This document shows positions 324-45,896 of a stretch of 45,896 bases of DNA, in pieces. Both the position numbers and the translations under genes were made by a program. The stretch lies in the NCBI GenBank assembly GCA_023301505.1, contig JALZUP010000105.1, positions 1-45,896 on the forward strand, written 5' to 3'. A model generated the notes under the pieces. The model did no database searches, was not told where the DNA came from, and saw only the letters and a program-made list of their open reading frames with translations. Numbering within the stretch: the first letter of the stretch is position 1; each line of letters starts with the position of its first letter. Origin of the DNA: Robiginitomaculum sp. GTDB lineage: Bacteria; Pseudomonadota; Alphaproteobacteria; Caulobacterales; Maricaulaceae.

Positions 324-740
324 CTAAGAATACAATTCCATGGACTCCTCAATATAAGCACCCAGTTGTATTAAGTTATTGAATTTTACCTCTGCATCTG
401 GCTTTAGCGAATGAAAAGGAAATGTACCAGTAAGTGGCGTGTTTTTGACTAGCGAATACAATAAGCTTAATTTGCCATAAGGTGGCAAGGGCTTGTCTTC
501 CACAAAGGCTACAATAGATTTGGTAGCAGCCATTGCCTTTCCTCGATCTTGCGTCTGTATATCAAAGGATCGGTTGTCTAGCAATATCCGTTGTGCGGAT
601 TTGTAAGCCTCTTCTTGCAAGTTAACTTGTTGCTCAGATAAGACGGCAATAATCGGTAGATGTTGCTTGAAAAATAAAGCAGAGAATTGAAGGAATGTTT
701 GAGGCTCTTGGAGCTTCGTTGGGTTGGATTGATTTACCAT
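324..740 (-). CDS. hypothetical protein, paralog of 21996..22415
   Basis: 138-aa ORF; similar size, spacing and motifs to the second locus (LLYSLVK/LLYQLVC, FVEDKP/FIEKFSDKP); own promoter and structured leader. Confidence 0.75.
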   Translation of the reverse strand: MVNQSNPTKLQEPQTFLQFSALFFKQHLPIIAVLSEQQVNLQEEAYKSAQRILLDNRSFDIQTQDRGKAMAATKSIVAFVEDKPLPPYGKLSLLYSLVKNTPLTGTFPFHSLKPDAEVKFNNLIQLGAYIEESMELYS

Positions 741-897
741 GATTTGTCAATTATGGATGTTAAATAAAAAAAGCCGCCTTAATATTGGGTGACAAATCAT
801 GGACTTTACTACACAAGGTAATATACCAAAATAACCAATAAAAGACGGCTAGATCTTAATTAGATATAAGTGTAGTAAAGTAAAAATGATTTGTCAC
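741..897 (-). ncRNA. structured 5' leader (copy 1) with interleaved inverted repeats
   Basis: A 870..897 complementary to A' 789..814; P1 843..850 complementary to P1' 772..780 followed by T7; P2 hairpin 817..827; A'' 738..749 over the start codon repeats A. Confidence 0.65.
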
Positions 898-899
898 TA

Positions 900-929
900 C
901 AAATATAAACCTTTTTAGAATATGTCAAA
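900..929 (-). promoter_or_regulatory. Bacteroidota-type promoter for leader copy 1
   Basis: Minus strand TTTG (926..929), 18-nt spacer, TATATTTG (900..907), just upstream of leader element A. Confidence 0.65.
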
Positions 930-966: not shown

Positions 967-980
967 CACGAATCTTGCAA
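967..980. promoter_or_regulatory. TTGCATAATTCGTG-like motif, copy 1
   Basis: CACGAATCTTGCAA; related copies at 4373, 17864, 18351, 22697, 34405, 37826. Confidence 0.5.
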
Positions 981-4606: not shown

Positions 4607-6122
4607 GTGGAAGGATTTTGAAAAAAAAGGAGATCAGCAAAATGCTGATCTTTCTAATTATGTTTTTGGAAAAGTGGCGCCTAATTCGGTACCGCTTGAA
4701 CGCGCTGCACTTGGCGCAATAATGCTAGATAAAGATGCTATTTCGGTAGTTATCGACATTATTGAGGCAGATGATTTATATGATTCTAGACATCCTCTTA
4801 TTTACAAGGCTTTTATTCGTCTTTTTGAAAGGAGTCAGCCGATTGACATATTGACGGTCACAAATGAATTGAAAGCTTCTGGAGATCTAGAGAATGCAGG
4901 AGGTGGGGGTTATATAACAACTCTAACAAATAGAGTTACCTCGGCTGCGAATTTAGAATATCATGCTCGGATTATCGCTCAGCTTTCGATGCGTAGAAAA
5001 GTAATTAAAACCAGCGTCAAATCTATAGAAGAGGCATATGATCCGACAGTAGATGTATTTGATTTAGTAGATAATGCAGAGCAGGGGATATTTGATGTAG
5101 CCTCTAAGCATCTTGTTGGTAGTGTTGAAAAAAGTTCAGATTTGGCATTAAAAGCATTGAAGCAGATAGAGGCAGCCGCTCAACAAGGCGATGGATTAAC
5201 AGGTGTCCCATCTGGATTTAGTGATTTAGATAGAGTAACATCTGGATGGCAAAAATCAGATTTAATCATCATTGCAGCGCGTCCAGGAATGGGAAAAACA
5301 GCGATTATGCTGGGCATGGCAAAGAATGCCTCGATGGATTTTGGGAAAGATGTCGCTATTTTTTCCTTAGAAATGAGCAAGTTGCAGTTAACGACTAGAC
5401 TTATAAGTTTAGAAGCAGAAATATCAGGATCAAAATTAAGAAGCGGATCGCTAGAGCCTGATGAATGGAAGGTGTTGCATCATTCCGTTGAGAAAATTAC
5501 TAATGCGAAAAGTAGTATACACATAGACGATACGCCTGGTATTAGCGTATTCGAGCTTCGCGCCAAATGCCGTCGATTGAAGATGCAGAATCCCAACCTT
5601 AGTATGATAATAATAGATTATCTACAACTAATGACTGGAGGAGGATCCAAAAATAGCGGGAATAGAGAGCAAGAGATTTCCTTTATTTCTCGCTCCCTAA
5701 AAGGATTAGCAAAAGATTTGAATGTTCCTGTGATCGCACTCTCTCAATTAAGTAGAGCAGTAGAGCAGCGCGGCGGAACAAAGCGCCCTCAACTTTCTGA
5801 TTTACGCGAAAGTGGCGCGATAGAGCAAGATTCGGATATTGTAACGTTTATTTATCGGCCAGAATATTATCAGATACTAGAGGATGAGGAGGGCCAGAGC
5901 TTGAAAGGGATAGGCGAAGTTATTATTGCAAAGCATAGAAATGGGGCATTAGGCACTGTTAAATTGAAATTTACAGACCGCTATGCTAAGTTTTCAGATT
6001 TGGATGATTTTGAGAGTCTGCCAGATGCATTTGAAAATATTGCTAGTAGTATTAATACTGGGTTGCCTGAAAATGTGATTAAAATGGCTAGGAACGGGAA
6101 TGAGGAGGATATTCCTTTTTAG
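4590..6122 (+). CDS. dnaB: replicative DNA helicase DnaB
   Basis: VPLERAALGAIMLD N-domain, ARPGMGKTA Walker A, IIIDYLQLM, LSQLSRAVEQR; start taken at MSQKSKWKD rather than upstream TTG. Confidence 0.95.
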   Translation: MSQKSKWKDFEKKGDQQNADLSNYVFGKVAPNSVPLERAALGAIMLDKDAISVVIDIIEADDLYDSRHPLIYKAFIRLFERSQPIDILTVTNELKASGDLENAGGGGYITTLTNRVTSAANLEYHARIIAQLSMRRKVIKTSVKSIEEAYDPTVDVFDLVDNAEQGIFDVASKHLVGSVEKSSDLALKALKQIEAAAQQGDGLTGVPSGFSDLDRVTSGWQKSDLIIIAARPGMGKTAIMLGMAKNASMDFGKDVAIFSLEMSKLQLTTRLISLEAEISGSKLRSGSLEPDEWKVLHHSVEKITNAKSSIHIDDTPGISVFELRAKCRRLKMQNPNLSMIIIDYLQLMTGGGSKNSGNREQEISFISRSLKGLAKDLNVPVIALSQLSRAVEQRGGTKRPQLSDLRESGAIEQDSDIVTFIYRPEYYQILEDEEGQSLKGIGEVIIAKHRNGALGTVKLKFTDRYAKFSDLDDFESLPDAFENIASSINTGLPENVIKMARNGNEEDIPF

Positions 6123-15134: not shown

Positions 15135-16211
15135 TTGCACCAAAAAGATAATTTAATGGAAGAATTCTTCATCATAAAAGACAATCAATTTTTGATTGCT
15201 ACTACGATAATTAATCAGTTAAAAGGAAGCCACAACAAAGCTTACCAGCGATGGCGAAAAAGAAGGGGACTCGCAGCAGTCTTGAAGCTATCAGGCAAGC
15301 ATTATTTTACGGCGCAGGATACTTTAGTTTTTCTGAAGGGATATGTGCATACCGATGCCGGCGAGATGATTGGCGAGACTATCCAAACTATTATCAAGAC
15401 AATAGAGGATCTTATTAGTCAGGACAGTAAGCAAGCTGCGATTGTCTCGACAGATAAGAAAGTCGAGACAAGTGTCTCGGCAGTAGTGGTTGATAAAAAG
15501 GTAGTTGTCTCGAAAGAAAAAAAGTATACGCCTTCTTTTGAAAACAAGAATAATGTCTTAAGGAGTAAGACAGGTCCCGAATCTGTAAGTAAGATAATTG
15601 TTGCGAATGGGACAGTATCCAGTATAGTTGCAAATGATGTCTCAAGTAGTGAGACAATTACTTCTGTTCAATCCGACTCTAAGACAACTGTCTCAGCTAG
15701 GAAGGCGTTGGAAACAAAGGGTGTTTCGGAAGTGCAAGTCACTGGCGTAGATGTCTCGCCATTAAAGGAGACTAAGACTAACAGAAACGACCCATTACGG
15801 GCTATGCCTAGCGTACAACCAGTAACGGCTCTCAATTCAAGGATTAGACCTCTCAGTGAGACATTATTGGTTGAAGAAACAAAGGATGCAGTTAAAGGGG
15901 GCGAGACATTACGAGGGTATAGCGTCTCGGATGGTGGAGTGGCTGTATTGGAAGAGCCATTACTAAACGTCAAAACGAGACAGCGAGACAAGACAGTGGG
16001 ACGACAAGACAACGGGACAGCGAGACAAGACAGTGGGACAAGACAGTGGGACGACAAGACAACAGGACAGCGAGACAAGACAGTGGGACAAGACAGTGGG
16101 ACGACAAGACAACAGGACAGCGAGACGAGACAGTGGGACAAGACAGTGGGACGACAAGACAACAGGACAGCGAGACGAGACAGCGAGACAAGACGGTGGG
16201 ACGGAACCTAG
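15135..16211 (+). CDS. hypothetical repeat-containing protein
   Basis: 358-aa ORF; compact N-terminal domain, low-complexity linker, C-terminus encoded by 50-bp tandem repeats. Confidence 0.6.
   Translation: MHQKDNLMEEFFIIKDNQFLIATTIINQLKGSHNKAYQRWRKRRGLAAVLKLSGKHYFTAQDTLVFLKGYVHTDAGEMIGETIQTIIKTIEDLISQDSKQAAIVSTDKKVETSVSAVVVDKKVVVSKEKKYTPSFENKNNVLRSKTGPESVSKIIVANGTVSSIVANDVSSSETITSVQSDSKTTVSARKALETKGVSEVQVTGVDVSPLKETKTNRNDPLRAMPSVQPVTALNSRIRPLSETLLVEETKDAVKGGETLRGYSVSDGGVAVLEEPLLNVKTRQRDKTVGRQDNGTARQDSGTRQWDDKTTGQRDKTVGQDSGTTRQQDSETRQWDKTVGRQDNRTARRDSETRRWDGT
15991..16200. repeat. 50-bp tandem repeat array
   Basis: AGACAGTGGGACGACAAGACAAC recurs at 15991, 16041, 16091, 16141; AGACGGTGGGACG at 16191. 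Confidence 0.95.
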
Positions 16212-16707
16212 ATGGAAAGGAAATATAAAAACAAAGCCGTCTAAGTCAATCGGCTATAAGCTAGGTAAGTTGTTTTCTAGCTTTGGTTTCTTATACAGTG
16301 CTGCGATTGTACTTTGCTTTACTGAAAGTTTCTTCCTAAGAAGCTTTTTTATGGTAGACGGCGCAATAGGCGTTAATGAATATGTAGGCTTCCTGTCTTC
16401 CTTAGTTTTTAATGCCATTGCGCTTATCTGCGCCCTGAGTGAAGACATTTGGAGAAAAGCATTTATGGTCAACAGAGATTTAGAATTCACAGATAAGACT
16501 AAGACAAGCTATCTTTTGTTCTTCCTCTTCGCCTGGCATTTAGGCGCTACTTTTATTGTCTTGAATCAAGACTTCCACGACTTGTTTGCGCTGGAATGCC
16601 GATACCGAGACATCAAAAATATGTTTCGGGCGCTTGCAACAGCCTGCATTATGGTCTTTTTCCCTAAGACAATTATCGCTAAGTGGCGGGTGGAAAATGC
16701 TAAATAG
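16033..16707 (+). CDS. membrane protein ORF emerging from the tandem repeat
   Basis: GTG-started 224-aa ORF; from about 16246 GYKLGKLFSSFGFLYSAAIVLCFTE with about 4 hydrophobic segments. Confidence 0.6.
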   Translation: MGQDSGTTRQQDSETRQWDKTVGRQDNRTARRDSGTRQWDDKTTGQRDETARQDGGTEPRWKGNIKTKPSKSIGYKLGKLFSSFGFLYSAAIVLCFTESFFLRSFFMVDGAIGVNEYVGFLSSLVFNAIALICALSEDIWRKAFMVNRDLEFTDKTKTSYLLFFLFAWHLGATFIVLNQDFHDLFALECRYRDIKNMFRALATACIMVFFPKTIIAKWRVENAK

Positions 16708-21995: not shown

Positions 21996-22415
21996 TTAGC
22001 TCATCTCCTCCAAATCCTCCACCAATTCATTTCCAAATACTAGCTGATGCGAAAGCCCGTAATATTGCGCCAAGCACATCATAGTGAGTGGCGATAGTTC
22101 CGCAAATAAGCCAGTGCTCCCAAACTGAGATTTGCAAACTAGCTGATACAATAGTTGCATCCGACGAAACGGCTTATCGCTAAATTTTTCAATAAATTCA
22201 AAAAGGCTTAAAGTTTCTTTTTCCCAAGATAACTGGGGAATAGGTAAGTCATACTTCTCCTGCTCGGCTAGAAGCATCTTTTTGGCATCGTCATAGATTC
22301 GCTCTAGTAATAGATGGAATTGGTCGGTAATAGCGGAAACGATGCCGTTGTTGGCTTGAATAAATTGCTTTCGCATCATGCGGAAGCTTTCTTGTTGTTG
22401 AATCTGATTTAACAT
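21996..22415 (-). CDS. hypothetical protein, paralog of 324..740
   Basis: 139-aa ORF with matching leader architecture. Confidence 0.75.
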   Translation of the reverse strand: MLNQIQQQESFRMMRKQFIQANNGIVSAITDQFHLLLERIYDDAKKMLLAEQEKYDLPIPQLSWEKETLSLFEFIEKFSDKPFRRMQLLYQLVCKSQFGSTGLFAELSPLTMMCLAQYYGLSHQLVFGNELVEDLEEMS

Positions 22416-22594
22416 TATGTGTTGTCGTTACATAAGTGAAATAATAAAGCCGCCTAAAAGTTGGGTGACAACACATAATGCTACAAACCTCATAGAGGAA
22501 TACAATAAAGTGACCAACAAATAGACGGCTAGTTCTTTTTGTGATTGATACGCCTAGTAGAGGTATCTTGTAGCTAAAGTTATGTTGTCGATAC
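22416..22594 (-). ncRNA. structured 5' leader (copy 2)
   Basis: A2 22560..22590 complementary to A2' 22467..22491; P1 22523..22530 / P1' 22448..22456; P2 hairpin 22488..22498; A2'' 22413..22427 over the start codon. Confidence 0.65.
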
Positions 22595-22600
22595 AAAGAT

Positions 22601-22608
22601 CAAACATA
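22601..22608 (-). promoter_or_regulatory. -7 box of leader copy 2
   Basis: Minus strand TATGTTTG (TAnnTTTG) just upstream of A2. Confidence 0.5.
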
Positions 22609-22696
22609 ACTTTCATATATCCAAATAGCTAAATTAATCACATTATCAATAAAAATACTAGCCTTATGGTTATTATCCAAGAACTTTGATAATAAT

Positions 22697-22710
22697 TACG
22701 AATCTTGCAA
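22697..22710. promoter_or_regulatory. TTGCATAATTCGTG-like motif, copy 5
   Basis: TACGAATCTTGCAA. Confidence 0.5.
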
Positions 22711-42696: not shown

Positions 42697-42723
42697 AGCA
42701 AGGAGAAACAGAGGATAAACAAC

Positions 42724-42880
42724 TCCCAACCCCCCAAGGGGAAGATCAGATCAAAAGGTATTCGTTAAAGGATAAATACCAGATCAAAAAGATTGACACA
42801 GAAAAAGCAGAAACCGAATCAATGGAAAAGCAGCGACTTAAAAGAAAGCACTGCACGCTCCCCCTTGGGGGTTGGGGGTA
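42724..42880. repeat. R4 MITE-like repeat
   Basis: Same termini and interior as 30286..30440. Confidence 0.85.
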
Positions 42881-42939
42881 AGAAACAAAAGCAAAAGCTC
42901 CCCTCAAAAGGATCAGCACCATCAAAATAAAAATAATAA

Positions 42940-44130
42940 ATGCACAAAATACTATACAAGGCAACCATATTACTAGTAGCCATCATCTTCACCCTAATAA
43001 TAGGAACAGCCATCAAAGCCTGTAACTACGAAGCGCCAGCGCCCCAGTTGCCAATAGCAGAAAACGTACAAAAATACGAACGATGCGGTACCCAAGCATA
43101 CTGCGAAGAACTACTAAAAGACCCCGAATACAAAAAAGAATTCGAGCGAAGAAGTAAATACCTAGACGGCATCCAAGGCAGAATAGCACAGCGCACAGAA
43201 AATGTTCTAAAAATACCAGTAGCTATACATTTTCAAGGCGTCGCAGACAGTGTCTCCAGAGAATGTCTAGAAGCAGTATCTCAAGAACAAATACAAAAAC
43301 TAAACGACGACTTCCAAAGAAAAAACACCGATAGAAACCTATTCGAAATCAGAAAAGGAATGTATCCAGGCGTAGAAGCAGGCGCAGTAGAATTCGTCTT
43401 TCAAATAGCCAATCAAAACCACCCAAAAGAATTTGGCCTACAAGACGACGACCTAGCAGTAACAATAAATAAAGTAACCGGTGACCGAGAATTTAGATTC
43501 GCAGGCTACCTAAATATTTTTGTATTCGACATAGAAAACAACATATTGGGCTATAGCCCACTAGGCGGCGCCACGAATGGCGATGGCGTTGTCATCGCCC
43601 CGTTCGCATTCGGCACAGCAACAGCTTGTGGAAAGTTCGGCGGCGTCGCTGATTTTGAAGAAGGCAGAACCTTAACGCACGAGTTAGGACATTACCTATC
43701 GCTCAATCACATTTGGGCCGTACAAAATAATTGTGCCACAGATGACGGCATACCAGATACCCCTGAGTCAGATAGTCCAAATTTCGGTTGTCCAGCCGTA
43801 AACGTAATAAAATGCGGCAGTCAAGACCTATTCTTGAACTATATGGACTATACGAACGACAACTGCATGGTCATGTTCACAAAAGGACAATCAGACAGAA
43901 TGAGTAACTGGATAAGTCTCTTCGGGCAACGACTAACAAACAACGCAGAAATAGTTATTTCAAATCCGGAAGAAGAAGACCCAGTTGCAGAAGTACCGAT
44001 ACAGCCAATAGATCCACCTGAAGAGGAAGAGGAAGAGGAAGAGGAAGAGGAAGAGGAAGAGGAAGAGGAAGAGCCGAACGATGGAAAAAGCTGGTGGACT
44101 GCATTTTGGGATTGGGTACTAGGCAGGTAG
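42940..44130 (+). CDS. M43-type (pappalysin-like) zinc metalloprotease with poly-Glu tail
   Basis: TLTHELGHYLSLNHIW, NYMDYTNDNCMVMFTKGQSDRM; Glu18-type run, C-terminal KSWWTAFWDWVLGR. Confidence 0.88.
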   Translation: MHKILYKATILLVAIIFTLIIGTAIKACNYEAPAPQLPIAENVQKYERCGTQAYCEELLKDPEYKKEFERRSKYLDGIQGRIAQRTENVLKIPVAIHFQGVADSVSRECLEAVSQEQIQKLNDDFQRKNTDRNLFEIRKGMYPGVEAGAVEFVFQIANQNHPKEFGLQDDDLAVTINKVTGDREFRFAGYLNIFVFDIENNILGYSPLGGATNGDGVVIAPFAFGTATACGKFGGVADFEEGRTLTHELGHYLSLNHIWAVQNNCATDDGIPDTPESDSPNFGCPAVNVIKCGSQDLFLNYMDYTNDNCMVMFTKGQSDRMSNWISLFGQRLTNNAEIVISNPEEEDPVAEVPIQPIDPPEEEEEEEEEEEEEEEEEEPNDGKSWWTAFWDWVLGR

Positions 44131-44131
44131 C

Positions 44132-44163
44132 TTCATCGGACGGCGCTAGCCATCCGATGAATA
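44132..44163. repeat. R1 hairpin repeat
   Basis: ttcatcggacggcgctagccatccgatgaata. Confidence 0.9.
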
Positions 44164-44200
44164 GGAAAGGATACTATAATCATAATTAAAAAAAAATAAA

Positions 44201-44596
44201 ATGCTAGGATTGCCACACATAATATCAGGATTAGTTGGATTGGCTTTAGGAACTTTGTTAGACGAAGAAATAAATGAAAATACAGATAATGAAACCGACC
44301 CAGATAATGATAGATATTATGTTTTTTTTGAAGGAGAAGATAATGATGGTAGCAGCAGAAAAATTTCTGTTAATTTTCCTGAATACAGGAAAGCAGTAGA
44401 TTTTTACAACTCAATTAATAAGTTGAAAGAATTTAGTTTAGAAAAAATTAAAGATAACGAATATTTTGAGGAAGGAACGATGTATAAGGATAGAGATATA
44501 GAATTTTATTTAGAGGAAGGTGAAAAATACAAATCAACAGAAGTTTCAATAGGATATGGAGACCAAACATTTGAAAGATTGGTGTTTGATGTATGA
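44201..44596 (+). CDS. hypothetical acidic protein
   Basis: 131-aa ORF. Confidence 0.65.
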   Translation: MLGLPHIISGLVGLALGTLLDEEINENTDNETDPDNDRYYVFFEGEDNDGSSRKISVNFPEYRKAVDFYNSINKLKEFSLEKIKDNEYFEEGTMYKDRDIEFYLEEGEKYKSTEVSIGYGDQTFERLVFDV

Positions 44597-44617
44597 TTTT
44601 CCGAACAGGAAAAACAA

Positions 44618-44771
44618 CCCCCAACCCCCACGGGGGAGATCAGATCAAAAAGGTATTATCACAGGATAAACGCCAGATCAAAAAAAATTGATAAAGGACA
44701 AAGATCAGATCAAAAAGAAAAGCAGCAACTTAAAAGAAAGCACTGCAAGCTCCCCCTTGGGGGTTGGGGGT
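44618..44771. repeat. R4 MITE-like repeat
   Basis: Terminal inverted repeats as above. Confidence 0.85.
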
Positions 44772-44823
44772 AAGAAACAAAAACAAAAGCCAAGATCAAA
44801 AGGATCAGCACCATCTAAAAAAA

Positions 44824-44922
44824 AATCAGAAATCATAAATCAGAATTCATACATCATATATCCACATGATTTAAACCACGCAGATATATGATTGATGATG
44901 TAAGATGTATGATCTATGATTT
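44824..44922. repeat. R3 AT-rich dyad repeat
   Basis: aaatcataaatcagaattcatacatcat ... gatatatgattgatgatg. Confidence 0.75.
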
Positions 44923-44939
44923 TGTCACAGGACAAACAA

Positions 44940-45095
44940 CCCCCCAACCCCCAAGAGGGAGATCAGATCAAAAAGGAATTATCACAGGATAAACGCCAGA
45001 TCAAAAAAAGATTGATAAAGGACAAAGATCAGATCAAACAAAAAGCAGCGACTTAAAAGAAAGCACTGCACGCTCCCCCCTTGGGGGTTGGGGGT
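44940..45095. repeat. R4 MITE-like repeat
   Basis: Terminal inverted repeats as above. Confidence 0.85.
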
Positions 45096-45289
45096 AAGAA
45101 ACAAAAGCAAAAGCCAAGATCAAAAGGATCCGCAACATCAAAAAAAAGCCACTCAAAAAGAGCAGCTTTGAAAAATTCCTATAAAACGGAGAAAACTTAA
45201 TCGAAACACTAATGATTAAGTAATACAGCAAATATATACATAAATATTCCATAAATCGTAAAAACAAAGCAATTAAATATAGAATTATT

Positions 45290-45697
45290 ATGAAATATAA
45301 GATTTTATCAATTTTTACCCTACTAATACTAGCAGTTACGCTAGCCAGCGCCCAAACAAAAATAGGCCAACTAGCACCCTGCCTAGACGCAGCAGGCGCC
45401 CCATTAGCAGGCTGTCAAATCATATCGGGGACTGACGGGAAATACAAGCAAGTAGTATTCGCTGCTTGTTTATGTGTAGATGGAAACGTGATCAAAAAAT
45501 ACGTCAACGCAAAAAACTACGCAGACACCTGCCACACGGAAATACTACCAGGCTTATGCAACGAGGAGCAAGTAGTCGTTAATCCGATTACGGAATCGAG
45601 TAGTTTCGGATTGTGCAGCAGCACGATTACGGAAACGAGCAGCTTCGGGCTATGCAGCAGCACGATTACCGAAACGAGTAGCTTCGGGTCCTGCTAA
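45290..45697 (+). CDS. secreted small Cys-rich protein with C-terminal 13-aa repeats
   Basis: signal MKYKILSIFTLLILAVTLASAQ; ITESSSFGLCSST repeats (39-bp units at 45587, 45626, 45665). Confidence 0.75.
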   Translation: MKYKILSIFTLLILAVTLASAQTKIGQLAPCLDAAGAPLAGCQIISGTDGKYKQVVFAACLCVDGNVIKKYVNAKNYADTCHTEILPGLCNEEQVVVNPITESSSFGLCSSTITETSSFGLCSSTITETSSFGSC

Positions 45698-45725
45698 ATA
45701 TATGATCTTGTCACAGGACAAACAA

Positions 45726-45878
45726 CCCCCAACCCCCAAGGGGGAGATCAGATCAAAAAGGTATTATCACAGGATAAACGCCAGATCAAAAAGTATTATC
45801 ACAGGATAAACACCAGATCAAGCAAAACGCAGCCACTTAAAAGAAAGCACTGCAAGCTCCCCCGTGGGGGTTGGGGGT
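45726..45878. repeat. R4 MITE-like repeat
   Basis: Terminal inverted repeats as above. Confidence 0.85.
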
Positions 45879-45896
45879 AAGAAACAAAAGCAAAAG

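Follow-up and report, generated by a model that had tools for sequence, protein, structure and literature searches.

Two homologous genes in the analysed stretch of 45,896 nucleotides (referred to as the window) each follow a leader whose segments are complementary to one another, and the question is what such a leader might do to the gene behind it. Both genes lie on the minus strand and are called copy 1 (324..740, 138 aa) and copy 2 (21996..22415, 139 aa) here; their proteins share 25% identity over 115 residues. For the 139-aa protein, which belongs to no recognised family, domain and family searches gave no match, and a structure prediction made from two sequences was weak (pLDDT 59) and all-helical.

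The initial annotation had pointed to homologues and their upstream regions, and these yielded both a further leader and a gene that lacks one. With the copy 2 protein as query, four homologous genes were found in the source assembly, two in the window and two on contig C256. One of the latter (G000:C256:20747, copy 3) encodes a protein 49% identical to copy 2 and has an independent leader upstream. The other (G000:C256:5364-5753, match at 5394) is 25% identical to copy 2, and a leader was looked for upstream of it and was absent. A homologue of this kind was what the initial annotation had named as contrary evidence, and it shows that genes of this family can occur without the leader, although the leader recurs. 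Exactly three matches to the pattern AGCCGTC-N45..75-AGGCGGCT are present in the 3.84 Mb assembly, and these are the three leaders. Between copies 2 and 3 the identity at codon positions 1, 2, and 3 was 54, 75, and 40%, which, as expected, fits a protein-coding gene under constraint.

All elements quoted by the initial annotation for copy 2 were found in the claimed order on the minus strand between 22413 and 22710, and the same order is present in copy 1 (minus strand, 737-980). In the direction of transcription, copy 2 begins with arm A, which starts at the predicted +1 (GACAA..., 22567..22589), followed by the 5' strands of two helices, P1 (AGCCGTCTA, 22522..22530) and P2 (GTTGG, 22514..22518, compensatory between copies). 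Behind a small hairpin, CCTC-TAT-GAGG (22488..22498), lies arm A' (22467..22487), which is antisense to both A and a third segment, A''. The 3' strands P2' (CCAAC, 22460..22464) and P1' (TAGGCGGCT, 22448..22456) come next, and directly after P1' a T-rich, terminator-like tract (22439..22448). A'' itself (GACAACACATAATG, 22413..22426) is a 14-nt exact complement of A' and lies over the ATG at 22413-22415. The corresponding parts of copy 1 are A (870..895), P1 (842..850), P2 (TATTGG, 835..840), A' (791..814), P2' (CCAATA, 783..788), P1' (AAGGCGGCT, 772..780), the T tract after P1' (762-772), and A'' (TGACAAATCATGG, 737..749), again over the start codon and all on the minus strand. The small hairpin proposed earlier exists in copies 1 (GGTA-TAT-TACC) and 2, but it is absent from copy 3 and therefore is not a conserved part.

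Upstream of the arms, a candidate promoter was recognised in every copy. The sequence TTTG-N18..20-nATnTTTG, followed by TAnnGACAA, occurs in 3/3 copies; in copy 2 it reads TTTG-N20-gATcTTTG (22594..22625, minus strand), a predicted promoter of the Bacteroidota sigma-A type with the -7 box at -12 to -5, and in copy 1 TTTG-N18-TATATTTG (900..929, minus strand). The -7 box of Bacteroidota sigma-A is TAnnTTTG, located at -12 to -5 (PMC9723704). Based on this published placing, arm A should open with the first transcribed base in all three copies, the G of GACAA. The stretch ATnTTTGTAnnGACAA is invariant at the 5' end of all three leaders, and from the predicted +1 through P1' the leaders measure 124, 142, and 144 nt in copies 1, 2, and 3, respectively. 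Further upstream, the motif that had been noted for both loci, TTGCAAGATTCGT, was located on the minus strand at 22698..22710 (copy 2) and 968..980 (copy 1). Of its four occurrences in the 3.84 Mb assembly, three precede these leaders, and the motif may be bound by a regulator or belong to a second promoter. The fourth (G000:C102:1427-1439), where there is no leader, precedes a cytochrome-c-peroxidase-like gene by about 190 bp.

P1 had been described as conserved, and both P1 (AGCCGUC) and P1' (AGGCGGCU) indeed proved invariant in the three copies, while the pair adjoining them switches from U-A (copy 1) to A-U (copy 2). Past an internal loop, P1/P1' runs on into helix P2, which the initial annotation had missed. 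P2 is AUUGG/CCAAU in copy 1, GUUGG/CCAAC in copy 2, and UGCUG/CAGCA in copy 3; four of its five pairs are altered on both sides among the three sequences with pairing retained (a MAFFT alignment of the three divergent leaders misplaces P2). The earlier view that the structure is selected is thus backed by the third copy and by the covariation in P2. Compared to base shuffles, the stem from P1 to P1' had z values of -3.7, -4.1, and -3.4 in the three copies. It spans 79-83 nt and holds A' inside its loop. As a T-rich tract follows directly 3' of P1', the P1/P2 stem together with this tract looks like a terminator, with a long loop of about 50 nt and, in copy 2, an interrupted T tract.

It had also been suggested that the arms changed between the loci and that complementarity held, and in all three copies A' pairs with its own arms beyond shuffled controls. 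The pairing of A' with A amounts to 12+12 bp in copy 1 (where two of the bases counted precede the predicted start), 9+8 bp in copy 2, and, in copy 3, successive runs of 6, about 5, 11, and 11 bp, with z values of -11.3, -4.9, and -3.7 against base shuffles. For A' with its own A'', the pairing is 13 bp in copy 1, 14 bp (17 with G-U) in copy 2, and 8+5 bp with one bulge in copy 3 (z = -4.1, -5.5, and -4.9). Apart from GACAA, the arms of different copies share little. When 2000 random 16-mers were tried per copy with GACAA kept constant, not one reached the pairing strength of A'' with A', while the first 16 nt of A were equalled or beaten by 0.9%, 6%, and 0.6% of random 16-mers in the three copies. 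The match to the start codon therefore looks selected for itself. Cognate duplexes were calculated at -24 to -32 kcal/mol for A and -20 to -29 kcal/mol for A'', as against -9 to -19 kcal/mol for non-cognate duplexes; in 3/3 copies the cognate energies exceeded the shuffle means and every non-cognate combination. The idea of insulated cognate pairs thus holds, by computation, for the RNA-RNA arms in three copies, whereas its protein side is unsupported.

Folding predicted two states of the leader. When the leader was folded alone, A:A' formed and the probability of P1/P1' was 0.00, 0.00, and 0.01 in the three copies; with A blocked, it rose to 0.99, 0.98, and 0.85, and blocking only the first 20 nt gave 0.98, 0.98, and 0.84. 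Since the folding was nested, with pseudoknots excluded, the mutual exclusion of A:A' and P1:P1' is partly built into these values. Independent of the folding, only 2 nt connect A' and P2' in copies 1 and 2, which makes the coexistence of A:A' and P1:P1' awkward, yet not impossible. With the start region included, A':A'' reached 0.87 in copy 2 and 0.94 in copy 3, and a partial 0.37 in copy 1. Copies 2 and 3 are thus predicted to conceal A'' in their full-length RNA at equilibrium, so that the "on" state would depend on kinetics or a helper. A stem and an exclusive switch, as in attenuators, are therefore predicted, the latter from folding without pseudoknots, and the stem of copy 2 is followed by an interrupted T tract.

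Taking these features together, we lean, by a modest measure, toward the leader being a self-antisense attenuator that works like the immunity RNAs of phages. In a fresh transcript A:A' would pair first, and RNA polymerase would read on into the gene. If A were instead occupied in trans by an A'-bearing RNA of the same locus, which may be the terminated leader or a processed P1-P1' hairpin of about 80 nt, the P1/P2 stem would form and transcription would stop. Any leftover read-through message would also be blocked by A' paired over the start codon. A locus of this kind would silence itself as well as incoming elements sharing its arms, and related loci with other arms would stay unaffected, in keeping with how P4 CI RNA and the heteroimmunity of P1/P7 C4 RNA operate. 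We infer this silencing in trans from the anatomy of the leader. The 139-aa protein would then be something that a resident element must keep low, with antirepressor-, killer-, or replication-type functions as candidates. The long terminator loop, the interrupted T tract of copy 2, and the leaderless fourth homologue count against an attenuator.

Its main rival is activation in the manner of IsrK of Gifsy-1, which we consider unlikely. A short terminated leader would act in trans here too; its arm A, which almost repeats A'', would capture A' of a translationally inactive read-through mRNA and so free the start codon. IsrK has the same parts as the predicted layout of our loci, namely a promoter, a leader sRNA with a terminator, and a read-through mRNA with a hidden start, in which alternative structures control the translation of a downstream phage gene, and the predicted concealment of A'' in the full-length RNA of copies 2 and 3 is in line with it. 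However, folding of the short RNA places arm A in a helix with its own A', which would leave it unavailable, and A' of copy 2 fits A'' (14 bp, 17 with G-U) better than A (9+8 bp). IsrK also differs from the attenuator proposed here in that it activates; no copy-specific code of A, A', and A'' has been described there, and no sequence relation was seen.

The leader might also switch purely in cis, with a protein or a signal as its reader, such as the 139-aa protein feeding back on its own leader. The joint occurrence of protein and leader at three loci would agree with this, and the conserved GACAA and P1 could be protein contacts. Such a switch is nevertheless quite improbable, given that the arms diverged almost wholly between copies whose proteins are 49% identical and that the protein, without a family match, gives no hint of RNA binding. 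Even less credence goes to a pseudoknot in which A:A' and P1:P1' form together and the RNA itself is the product, perhaps as the partner of the protein as in type III toxin-antitoxin systems. The order A, P1, A', P1' is that of an H-type pseudoknot, and type III systems have the order promoter, RNA, terminator, and gene, which the leader locus resembles. In copies 1 and 2, A' is separated from P2' by 2 nt, set against A:A' helices of up to 24 bp, which the P1/P2 strand would have to span, and A'' over the start codon would be left unexplained; moreover, no tandem repeats are visible in the leader, and the protein has no ToxN-type family match. Least probable of all are DNA operators, with A, A', and A'' as binding sites of a protein and the RNA complementarity as a by-product of inverted sites: the promoter, the middle, and the start codon do each carry GACAA/TTGTC, but outside these five bases every copy has sites of its own that fit its own A', and the covariation in P2 would remain unexplained.

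The proposed self-antisense attenuator can be placed among known antisense systems. Attenuators of the pT181 type are similar to the one proposed here in that antisense pairing with the 5' part of a leader frees a terminator; unlike here, the antisense RNA comes from the opposite strand. On the opposite strand of our loci no Bacteroidota-type promoter was seen inside the leader, and only weak ones upstream of it. P4 terminates transcription by means of its CI RNA, which pairs with two sites, seqA on the upstream side and seqC on the downstream side (PMC4825925). The CI arrangement (seqA/seqB/seqC) is shared by the leader: an untranslated leader with a central antisense stretch, and upstream and downstream sites on one transcript. 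In our three copies the leader is antisense to the translation start of the downstream gene over 13-14 bp (with one bulge in copy 3), and a second complementary site lies upstream on the transcript, like seqA. Coupling of the pairing to premature termination likewise resembles the action proposed here (PMC4825925). In contrast to CI, the likely terminator is the P1/P2 stem with its T tract; the downstream site covers the start codon, the upstream one coincides with the predicted 5' end, and the two RNAs showed no relation in sequence.

The C4 RNA of P1 and P7 is processed from a larger transcript to about 77 nt; part of the ribosome binding site lies under one of its loops, and a few bases restrict its target (PMC5320573, PMC12197685). 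Its size is close to the 79-83 nt from P1 to P1', and in both cases an antisense loop faces the start of a gene on the same transcript. Small changes in the arms of C4 create heteroimmunity, which is the logic of the arm-specific silencing proposed here. While C4 has a three-stem structure with loops a' and b' (PMC5320573), the leader forms one extended P1/P2 stem around A' in 3/3 copies, and its upstream arm A competes for the antisense loop. Rfam gave no C4 match in the leaders at the gathering threshold or at E<=10, and no other family either. The leader would thus work like C4 and CI, yet it falls outside the C4 family of Rfam.

The surroundings of the leaders are those of a mobile element. 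As a DnaB, an integrase, a weak Rep_trans match, a DNA methyltransferase, and an endolysin are encoded by its frames, the window is virus-like or plasmid-like by gene content. Readings as CRISPR/tracr, retron, or group I/II intron were dropped, since no such gene was noticed among these frames. The GC content of the window is 37.5%, compared to 48% in the first contig of the assembly (G000:C1), which appears alphaproteobacterial by inspection, whereas the promoter consensus is of the Bacteroidota type. Based on these differences, the window contig (C105) and C256 are probably mis-binned, and the likely host belongs to the Bacteroidota. No relatives of the 139-aa protein were found in viral contigs, phage records, or plasmids, in genome contigs of all species (single-sequence query), or in 137 family and 398 order genomes centred on the alphaproteobacterial-looking main taxon of the bin. 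At the phylum level, a fragment in one of 399 genomes (E 6e-4) covered only 53 positions inside a 322-aa frame and was not counted as a relative. That family, order, and phylum yielded no relatives carries little weight, because the kinship searches were centred on that taxon while the likely host is a member of the Bacteroidota. Searches with further proteins of the window revealed no related virus either. Scans of viral contigs, genome contigs, and order genomes with the RNA pattern returned, beyond chance or unrelated matches, the three known copies only; the other matches were mostly in GC-rich coding DNA or ordinary terminators.

Several repeats were observed in the same contigs. A palindromic repeat of about 67 nt, AACAGTCCCAACGGGACGACACC..GCCCATGACGCAGTCGTGGGA, is present in six copies in the window (28019, 30581, 33786, 33930, 36530, and 42061). 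Two of the six match the Rfam entry Acido-Lenti-1, which suggests that this "RNA" may be a REP-like intergenic repeat. Another palindrome, TTCATCGGACGGCGCTAGCCATCCGATGAA, is repeated between genes at 282, 23511, 23925, 24504, 42666, and 44132 of the window and also occurs in C256, where stretches of SSDGxQPSDE repeated in proteins look like this palindrome translated in frame. An array of GACAAGACAGTGGGACGAC repeats (15925-16224) lies within the overlapping open frames 15135-16211 and 16033-16707 and is possibly a frame-changing repeat, and between the last genes (42709-45896) repeated units with ACCCCCAACCCCCAAGGGGGAG and TATGATTGATGATG motifs were noted.

A broader interpretation, which we put forward tentatively and regard as rather doubtful, is that the leaders represent a new class of immunity RNA of mobile elements in Bacteroidota-type hosts. 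Elements residing together in one host would carry paralogous genes with the same leader architecture and orthogonal arms, which would silence themselves side by side without cross-talk, each antisense arm providing both termination and a block of the start codon. If true, immunity by antisense RNAs that act on their own transcript, as described for P1, P7, and P4, would reach to elements with Bacteroidota-type promoters, and the three copies would be natural, apparently orthogonal versions of one RNA switch. These could be of use in testing how the divergence of arms sets heteroimmunity and in building insulated regulators.
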